A stretch of DNA of 64,000 nucleotides from Rhodospirillaceae bacterium (lineage in GTDB: Bacteria; Pseudomonadota; Alphaproteobacteria; UBA6615): assembly GCA_018667335.1 (NCBI GenBank), contig JABIVD010000015.1, positions 1 through 64,000 on the forward strand, in the 5' to 3' direction. Made by a program: the position numbers and the translations under genes. Below, piece by piece: positions 51,435 through 53,417 of the stretch; the stretch's first letter is position 1, and each line of letters starts with the position of its first letter. Below the pieces are notes generated by a model, which was not told where the DNA came from, made no database searches, and saw only the letters and a list, made by a program, of their open reading frames with translations.

Positions 51435-51490
51435 GGTCATAATCTCAGTTTTTCAAGTATCGAAGCTATGCAGAACCAACAAGGTTTGAA

Positions 51491-51565
51491 TTGAACCTGG
51501 TTCGGGGCTCACTATATGTTTTCATTATGTTGTAATTTTACTGGGGTTATTGAACCTAATTCGGG
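51491..51565 (+). promoter_or_regulatory. Paired 16-base repeats in the promoter region of the kinase cassette
   Basis: TTGAACCTGGTTCGGG (51491-51506) recurs 59 bases later as TTGAACCTAATTCGGG (51550-51565), 14 of 16 bases the same; each contains a GAAC and TTC pair giving local dyad symmetry. A possible -10 (TATATG near 51513-51518) lies just after the first copy. The pair looks like a regulator's binding sites upstream of the first gene at 51601. Confidence 0.5.
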
Positions 51566-51600
51566 TTCGAATAGAAATTCGAGAATGAGGAGGAAATTCC

Positions 51601-52071
51601 TTGACCGAACGATGGGTGGGGCTCGTGATCTCTGGCGAGAAAGTGACTGTGGCGGATGCAGAAGTTCCTGATGACGGACCTCTGATCTTGCAGGCGGATT
51701 TGACTTGGAAACTTCAGACTGGAAGTAAGCCTGCCGCTTATTATGCGTTAAGCCAGTTGTGCTCGAACTATTTACGAGAGAATGGCATTGAAAAAGTAGT
51801 GATAAAAGCCAGTGCGACCAGTCAAAGCGGGGTGAGGTTGGGACATTTTCATAGCGCTGAACTGAGGGGGGTTATTCAGTCGGCGGCAGCTTCTGTATGT
51901 GAAGTGAAAGTGATTCCGAAAGCCGCGGTCAGCAAAAATTTTGGCGACCGAAAGGTGGATGAGTACATCAAAGATACTGGGTTTTGGGGCCAGGAGTTCA
52001 ATGGCAAACCGCTGCGTTCCGGGAGTAGAGAAGCTGCGATGTTGCTTCTTGCCGAGCGAAAGCAAGCATGA
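51601..52071 (+). CDS. RNase H/RuvC-like small protein of unknown function
   Basis: The 156-residue protein starts at TTG (51601) after AGGAGGAAATTCC. Its layout looks like an RNase H-type fold: a first strand pair (WVGLVISGEKVTVADAEV), a helix leading to strand 4 (NGIEKVVIKAS), then GHFHSAELRGVIQSAAA and a late LRSGSREAAMLLL helix. The usual acidic positions read Ser and Lys in the first strands, so it may be catalytically dead. I do not recognise a named family with certainty. It overlaps the kinase gene by four bases and is lower in GC than its surroundings. Confidence 0.55.
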   Translation: MTERWVGLVISGEKVTVADAEVPDDGPLILQADLTWKLQTGSKPAAYYALSQLCSNYLRENGIEKVVIKASATSQSGVRLGHFHSAELRGVIQSAAASVCEVKVIPKAAVSKNFGDRKVDEYIKDTGFWGQEFNGKPLRSGSREAAMLLLAERKQA

Positions 52072-53105
52072 CTGCTTTTGTTTCAGAAATTGTCGTCGGC
52101 AAAAAAATTGGTAGTGGCCACTTTGGAGATGTTCACTTGGCCACAGACCCGGTCCATGGAGAAGTCGCCGTAAAGATTATTTCTCAAGAACCAACAGAAT
52201 CTGATGGCGTATGGGGCCATAGGAAGGCTGGGTTTCTTGCCGAGGCCCAGAACCTTGCGTCGGCGGCACATGACAATATCGTTCCGGTCCATCACTTGGT
52301 GGAAAGTGTCGATGGGAAGAGTATTCAGTATTGCATGAAGTTTTGCTCGGGCGGCTCTCTTCATAGTCGCTATGAAGTGGGGCCACTTCCGCTAAGTGCG
52401 GTTCGCAAAGCAGGTGCGGAAGTCTTGCTCGGGCTTGATGCTCTGCATGCGAGAGGAATGATTCACCGTGATATCAAGCCGGGTAACATTCTCATTGATG
52501 AAAACGGTGTTGCGAGGATCGGGGATTTTGGTCTTGTTACAGACGACTTGATTTTCGGCTACGCCGATAGGGCGGGATATAGCGATCACCTTGCCTACGA
52601 AGTCTGGGCAGACGGTGTTACCAGTGTTCGATCAGATGTTTGGGCATTTGGTATGACTTTGTATCGCCTTTTGCATGGTCACTCTTGGTACAGCGAATCG
52701 GAACTACCTCGTTTGTCGATCCATGAAGGCGGATTTCGGGATCATCTTCTATGGTTGCCTCATGTTCCTCGGCGTTGGCGAAGAGCGATCCGCTCTATGA
52801 TGGTCGATGACCCTCACAAACGCCTTCAATCTGTCGGACAGGTACAACAGGTGATAGCTGGCTTGCCCATTGCTCCGGACTGGAGCTGTGAAGTGGCCGG
52901 GTCTTATGTCCGTTGGCGGCGAGAAAATGGCAAAAGAATCGTCAAGGTCGAATGGAATAGAATCTCGGCCAGACGTCATGAATGGAAGGCATGGAGCGAA
53001 CCAGCCGTCGCTGGTGCTGGAAATAACAGAAAACTGGGAGCGTCAGACGGGGTTGTCGGAGCACGACAAGCGATAGGGGACCTAGAAAGATTTTTTCTTT
53101 CCTGA
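52068..53105 (+). CDS. Soluble Ser/Thr protein kinase (Hanks-type)
   Basis: The 345-residue protein has a complete kinase catalytic domain (residues about 8-265): glycine loop GSGHFGDV, ATP lysine Lys36 in VAVKI, catalytic HRDIKPGN (Asp135, Asn140), and DFG (Asp153). The activation-segment end reads AYEVWADG where APE is usual, then DVWAFGMTLYRLL. There is no transmembrane segment or known sensor domain. A C-terminal tail of about 75 residues (WRRENGKRIVKVEWNR) may bind a partner. Its ATG overlaps the upstream gene as ATGA. Confidence 0.92.
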   Translation: MTAFVSEIVVGKKIGSGHFGDVHLATDPVHGEVAVKIISQEPTESDGVWGHRKAGFLAEAQNLASAAHDNIVPVHHLVESVDGKSIQYCMKFCSGGSLHSRYEVGPLPLSAVRKAGAEVLLGLDALHARGMIHRDIKPGNILIDENGVARIGDFGLVTDDLIFGYADRAGYSDHLAYEVWADGVTSVRSDVWAFGMTLYRLLHGHSWYSESELPRLSIHEGGFRDHLLWLPHVPRRWRRAIRSMMVDDPHKRLQSVGQVQQVIAGLPIAPDWSCEVAGSYVRWRRENGKRIVKVEWNRISARRHEWKAWSEPAVAGAGNNRKLGASDGVVGARQAIGDLERFFLS

Positions 53106-53109
53106 TCCG

Positions 53110-53322
53110 TTACTTGTGAACCGGAAAGATATACCGATTTACTCGATCTTTTCGCTCTACGGGCCGAGTTCCTAATACCTTGATGGCTTCAGCCCGACGT
53201 TCATTTCTACAAGAGAAACAATACGCTTGAGAAGCGACCGAGTTTACCTGCGGTTTCCAACGTTCACCGCAGTGCCTGCATGCTGGCAGCGAAAGTAAGT
53301 TTGATCTAGTTCTTCCCGCCAT
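53110..53322 (-). CDS. Small double-CxxC zinc-ribbon protein
   Basis: The 70-residue basic protein has two CxxC pairs (Cys15/18 in ACRHCGERW and Cys35/38 in YCFSCRN), spaced as a zinc ribbon, then an Arg/Lys-rich C-terminus, hinting at nucleic-acid binding. No family is recognised. The start at 53322 follows GGGAGAAACGCTC; the upstream ATG at 53358 lies above the -10 element, so it would not be on the transcript. It is convergent with the kinase gene, with four bases between stops. Confidence 0.65.
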   Translation of the reverse strand: MAGRTRSNLLSLPACRHCGERWKPQVNSVASQAYCFSCRNERRAEAIKVLGTRPVERKDRVNRYIFPVHK

Positions 53323-53341
53323 GAGCGTTTCTCCCAAAACG

Positions 53342-53371
53342 GAACATACAGGGAACATAGATTCACGTCAA
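53342..53371 (-). promoter_or_regulatory. LexA-box promoter (SOS-type) of the zinc-ribbon gene
   Basis: Reading the minus strand, TTGACG (complement of 53366-53371) is followed after exactly 17 bases by TATGTT (53343-53348). The sequence GTTC-CCTGTAT-GTTC (complement of 53342-53356), the alphaproteobacterial LexA site GTTC-N7-GTTC, covers the spacer end and the -10. The initiation point would be about 53336, followed by GGGAG and the ATG at 53322. A LexA-repressed promoter fits all three elements. Confidence 0.75.
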
Positions 53372-53417
53372 ATGTCGTGCGGCGCGCCATTCATTGGGCA
53401 GTTCGTGTTCAAGACAT

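Follow-up and report, generated by a model that had tools for sequence, protein, structure and literature searches.

What might be the function of a short stretch of low-GC DNA lodged between the genes for a liv-type transporter and the box operon in the 64-kb stretch of DNA analyzed here (the window)? The original prediction placed two overlapping genes there, respectively coding for an RNase H/RuvC-like protein and a soluble kinase. Open reading frames at 51601-52071 and 52068-53105 bear out both genes, and their coordinates confirm the ATGA overlap. The low GC content also holds: in 500-base windows the cassette has 47-52% GC against about 58-70% elsewhere in the window, and the GC3 values of the RuvC-like gene (A, 0.51), the kinase gene (B, 0.46) and a neighboring zinc-ribbon gene (Z, 0.42) compare with 0.81-0.91 for the flanking liv and box genes. 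The predicted extent stood only in part: the two-gene pair is as described, but the zinc-ribbon gene belongs to it too. The reading frame of Z ends 5 bases past the end of the kinase gene, with the two genes tail-to-tail. Rather than stopping at 53105, the inserted DNA runs over about 51435-53417. The features are as follows:

About 51435 to 53417, no strand assigned: cassette of inserted low-GC DNA, from the livF stop (51434) to the benzoate-CoA ligase stop (53418).
51435 to 51600, plus strand: intergenic promoter region, 38% GC.
51601 to 52071, plus strand: gene A, RuvC-fold protein of 156 residues, TTG start.
52068 to 53105, plus strand: gene B, soluble Hanks-type kinase of 345 residues.
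53110 to 53358, minus strand: gene Z, zinc-ribbon protein of 82 residues with a CxxC...CxxC pattern, convergent with the kinase gene.

Upstream of A lies an imperfect direct repeat (51490-51506 and 51549-51565, ATTGAACCTnnTTCGGG, 59 bases apart) containing GAACC..GGTTC palindromes; from its sequence it looks like an operator, and no obvious counterpart was seen in the other loci with these three genes.

Comparison with related genomes points to insertion. Homology between the window and its congeners breaks off at the livF stop and restarts at the benzoate-CoA ligase stop, and the cassette is missing or replaced at this site in five congeners: one has essentially no DNA between the two genes (G005), two have about 110-160 bases (G004, G002), another (G001) has an alpha/beta-hydrolase-like ORF in about 1 kb of DNA, and G006 has a different low-GC cassette (44-52%) of about 2 kb. 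These gaps and the variable DNA indicate that the window cassette was inserted at a site where cargo varies. A itself is absent from all other genomes among 95 relatives. The transfer suggested in the original prediction is thus supported by the composition, the empty site in congeners and the mobile contexts described below. The G006 cassette (L093, G006:C3, 5586-7447) codes for two look-alike proteins of about 250 residues on opposite strands, both without a Pfam match, and an 89-residue ORF with CxxC motifs.

Further loci with the three genes (the trio) were collected in three ways: by searching the family of Rhizobium mongolense with a profile, by scanning genome contigs and through a plasmid match. 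This yielded eight loci with a full-length kinase: the window, R. mongolense (L015), S. meliloti pHRB800 (L002) and five further genomes (L073-L077). In all eight informative loci, which are alphaproteobacterial, the order is A, kinase and a convergent, tail-to-tail zinc ribbon; a zinc-ribbon profile built from three of them recovered Z in the remaining five (E 6.5e-28 to 0.005), so that the zinc-ribbon protein named in the original prediction as a possible companion recurs throughout the trio lineage. That A, B and Z are unrelated low-GC genes brought together by chance has nothing but the rarity of the arrangement in its favor and is exceedingly improbable: the order is constant across the eight loci despite the A proteins being only about 40-50% identical to one another, and this co-occurrence rules out a chance juxtaposition. 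The trio is indeed rare. One family gave matches in 6 of 398 genomes, and samples of 385 and 372 genomes drawn from across the class contained no true match other than that of the window genome. Used as sole queries, the window A protein found no match in the phage collection or in IMG/VR, and the zinc ribbon found none in plasmids.

Several trio loci lie on mobile DNA. L077 adjoins TniA, TniB and TniQ genes (Tn7/Tn5053-like), L076 sits on an element with RepA, and L002 on the conjugative plasmid pHRB800, where A is interrupted by ISRm4-1. A second R. mongolense copy (L079), with its kinase shortened to 167 residues and no zinc ribbon, falls outside the eight. Other matches were set aside: that at L003 (G184), which has no kinase ORF; those in G898 and G1451, which are weak and partial (E about 5e-4); and those of Nocardia (L008) and Skermanella (L007), which concern ordinary or T6SS-linked kinases. 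As to the immediate surroundings, genes for a DprA-like protein and a HAD hydrolase lie divergently beside the trio in Rhizobiaceae (L015, 5589-7863; L002, 7596-9861; L073, 4518-6199), joined by a phosphoribosyltransferase gene in L002 and L015. Near the trio in L073 (614-3593) and L074 (622-3141) an AAA and M41-like protease gene lies beside one for a protein of about 208 residues, which has no Pfam match.

To what fold does A belong? Modeled with AlphaFold, the window A (pLDDT 86.9) and its counterpart from the prophage Stk locus taken up below (93.0) show an identical order of elements. The top Foldseek match of the former in the PDB is Deinococcus radiodurans RuvC (E 3.8e-9, TM 0.74-0.77) and that of the latter Thermus thermophilus RuvC (E 9.4e-10, TM 0.79); viral structures labeled RuvC or Holliday-junction resolvase also match. 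The models therefore strongly indicate a RuvC fold in both modeled lineages, and the RNase H/RuvC-like assignment of the original prediction was right by predicted fold. No family for A was found in Pfam, NCBIfam, PADLOC or PHROGs, with family members giving weak matches to RuvC (0.13) and DUF3010 (0.008).

We compared A with the four catalytic acids of E. coli RuvC (D7, E66, D138 and D141) in an alignment that included the genome's own RuvC, a normal version encoded elsewhere in the host genome; identity in this alignment is only about 15%, but the fold supports it, as do conserved stretches (LRGV against ARGI, for instance). In the window A, V9 takes the place of D7, K69 that of E66 and a non-acid that of D138, with only the last acid kept, as E144; the loss of acidic residues noted in the original prediction is thereby upheld. 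The first aspartate position is occupied by V, H, S or A in trio proteins, and by arginine in nearly all Stk-type and in the restriction-type proteins (those of a third lineage, described below). The glutamate position has lysine in the trio, where K69 is invariant, arginine or lysine in the Stk type and lysine in the restriction type, while no conserved acid is seen at the Asp138 position of the A proteins. The last acid is retained in the three lineages as E144, E140 and D141, respectively. Thus, A shares its fold with the RuvC resolvase (PF02075) but differs from it in lacking three of the four catalytic acids and a Pfam match and in always lying beside a kinase gene, and we predict from sequence and models that it is a catalytically dead RuvC.

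One might instead suppose that A still works as a nuclease or resolvase, relying on other residues and switched on or off through phosphorylation by the kinase, the effector activity then being nucleic-acid cleavage. The strong RuvC fold, the last acid kept in all three lineages and the Holliday-junction resolvase label given to A in some database records would fit this proposal, but the replacement of three of the four acids in the trio, Stk and restriction types alike, with lysine or arginine in place of the glutamate, makes it very improbable. RuvC-type folds of the TEFM and Tex/Spt6 kind are also among the structural matches to A. Those are RuvC-like proteins that act in transcription elongation without nuclease activity; they differ from A in this role and in having no known kinase partner.

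In profile-profile comparisons none of the links among the A lineages was significant; the trio and Stk types gave E 0.024 with a probability of 2% over 142 aligned columns, which is below significance. Despite this weak profile link, the shared fold, length, position and partner make common descent of all A proteins likely, though unproved.

In the product of gene B, residues 10-254 form a full Pkinase domain (PF00069, 5.4e-37); the C-terminal tail, about 75 residues long, is common to the other trio kinases. A domain search found no further domain, in keeping with the complete soluble kinase with a short tail that had been described. The K36, HRD, N140 and DFG motifs are retained, and K36, D135, N140 and D153 align with Stk. 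PADLOC returned only general kinase-domain matches (mad6, 3.7e-51; best of many PD-T4-6 profiles, 4.4e-37). Staphylococcus Stk2, PD-T4-6 and MAD6 of the MADS system are likewise Hanks-type kinases that serve anti-phage defense, but the likeness of the window kinase to mad6 and PD-T4-6 is confined to the kinase domain, and it has partner genes rather than standing alone. We know of no RuvC-like partner for Stk2, PD-T4-6 or MAD6. Identity with MAD6 was rejected (81.8 bits for the NCBIfam equivalog against a cut-off of 460), as was that with housekeeping PASTA kinases of the PknB/Stk1 type (105.2 bits against 450, with no PASTA domain found). In a kinase tree, the trio (97/98), Stk (100/99) and restriction (100/100) types each form one clade, and a split with 100/99 support sets the A-partnered kinases apart from eight other bacterial kinases; a grouping of trio and Stk that excludes the restriction type is weakly supported (61/41).

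Beyond the trio, A is paired with a kinase wherever it was found, as the original prediction would have it. All 47 IMG/VR loci with A carry an adjoining kinase, many of these loci being near-identical Stx-phage copies and a few having a truncated kinase frame. The kinase directly follows A, mostly with an overlap, in the IMG/VR, plasmid, E. coli-prophage, SPbeta, Providencia, Mesorhizobium and G543 loci. In enterobacterial prophages the pair comes immediately after the CI repressor, and homologous DNA is present in 224 of 5,426 complete E. coli genomes; SPbeta-type Bacillus phages carry the pair as well. A third setting is in type I restriction operons of three alphaproteobacteria (Novosphingobium, Methylocystis and G1355; L004, 2166-11090; L005, 1266-10975; L108, 2731-12531), where A and kinase lie between hsdS and hsdR along with SprT. 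These share the A and B unit with the trio, and their A protein likewise has a basic residue where RuvC has its glutamate, but they differ in being part of a restriction operon, in lacking a zinc ribbon and in having a kinase of a separate branch. Their A protein as a query found no match in IMG/VR. Such operons, with two hsdS genes, A and kinase before hsdR and an SprT metalloprotease gene after it, appear to be a kinase-bearing variant of type I restriction.

These contexts bear on the proposal that B, aided by an accessory protein, is a regulatory kinase of the ordinary host kind, borne on an island and serving metabolism or stress with no role against phages. The generic Pkinase domain and the catabolic operons adjoining the window copy could be read in this way, but a patchy distribution, foreign composition and differing mobile contexts, with the pair recurring in prophages and restriction operons, render it improbable; rather than a housekeeping kinase with constant neighbors, we find one in varied contexts. 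Defense-gene neighbors, in which the original prediction had seen a possible clue, were found in the type I restriction islands of the related pairs, but clear ones were mostly not identified at the trio loci.

Which of these pairs has a described function? The Stk kinase locus of Stx phage 933W was reportedly described by Tyler and Friedman in 2004. For the locus comparison phi24B stood in for 933W; the kinase of its RuvC-like pair bears the annotation stk, and its immunity region has been described as resembling that of 933W. Like the window cassette, the locus of 933W and phi24B is mobile, and in it the gene for a small RuvC-fold protein overlaps that of a downstream soluble kinase (about 345 residues) with intact motifs, and Stk-type A proteins also lack RuvC Asp7 and Glu66. 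Unlike the cassette, which lies between the liv and box operons, it follows CI in a lambdoid prophage; no zinc ribbon was found there, in contrast to the trio, and the two kinases are only about 24% identical. What links trio-type and Stk-type A is only their common fold, gene order and partner. Stk of 933W is reported to be a tyrosine kinase that is activated by HK97 infection and blocks HK97 (PMC6356687, PMC3681748), and stk is expressed from pRM in lysogens (PMC3430580). The published phenotype is that of Stk, with the texts found assigning no role to its RuvC-like partner. The earlier statement that the pair matches no named system needs one correction: 933W-type Stx phages carry a related pair in their Stk locus, and an abortive-infection phenotype has been published for the kinase of that pair.

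Given the reported HK97 phenotype of Stk, we interpret the trio as a mobile kinase system of abortive-infection type; its dead RuvC would sense or regulate, and its kinase would execute. By analogy with Stk, the same phenotype lends support to the abortive-infection reading of the original prediction. On balance we favor, with some confidence, a mobile three-gene signaling system that most likely acts as an abortive-infection or cell-shutdown module, and A, B and Z together are probably an unrecognized mobile anti-virus or cell-shutdown system. The defense-like settings of A and kinase support this reading: after CI in prophages, in type I restriction islands, beside TniA/B/Q, on a RepA element and on a conjugative plasmid. 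Mechanistically, A would be a regulatory or sensing subunit. With its nucleic-acid-binding fold retained, it probably binds a DNA or RNA structure that is branched or single-stranded, or else a phage protein, and it would restrain the kinase until the cell meets infection or DNA stress. The freed kinase might then autophosphorylate and phosphorylate host proteins on serine/threonine or tyrosine, halting growth before phage release. Z probably has a tuning role, whether as inhibitor, as adaptor or as transcriptional regulator.

The main rival is a maintenance function akin to toxin-antitoxin systems, with the kinase as toxin and A (or Z) as antitoxin, which would serve the stability of plasmids or islands rather than phage defense. 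We regard it as unlikely, though it overlaps with the abortive-infection reading and the two are compatible. A and B are overlapping, small and mobile, occur on plasmids and have operator-like repeats upstream, and Stk is reportedly little active in uninfected cells, as a toxin held by its antitoxin would be; yet the reported effect of prophage Stk on another phage is triggered by infection, and a position between hsdS and hsdR would be odd for a stand-alone stability module.

Returning to the abortive-infection reading, we tentatively extend it to a general immune module of dead RuvC and soluble kinase, comprising prophage Stk, the SPbeta pairs, the type I restriction add-ons and the zinc-ribbon trio, in which the dead RuvC might recognize branched or replicating phage DNA and turn on the kinase, and Z would regulate it in the trio. 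If true, this would be a defense principle in which a pseudo-resolvase sensor drives a phospho-signaling effector, for which we found no description. The kinds of components and the phenotype of the related Stk locus are already known. What appears new, within the partial literature covered, is the recurrent pairing of Stk-type kinases with a dead RuvC, seen in phages, in restriction islands and in the zinc-ribbon trio; we found no paper there on a RuvC-like and kinase defense pair. Stk of 933W-type phages, which the texts found treat as a kinase by itself, is on these data half of a two-gene unit with a dead RuvC. The partner makes kinase sensing of an infecting phage directly testable, the trio is a small, portable and unnamed candidate defense system, and A exemplifies a resolvase fold predicted to be retained without its active site.

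Two further genes recur beside stk in enterobacterial prophages. An ORF of 53-54 residues lies directly 3' of stk (L006, 6987-7151; L010, 6334-6498; L012, 7508-7669), and in two of these prophages a DUF3024 gene precedes the pair of A and stk; both are possible extra members of the Stk-type unit.
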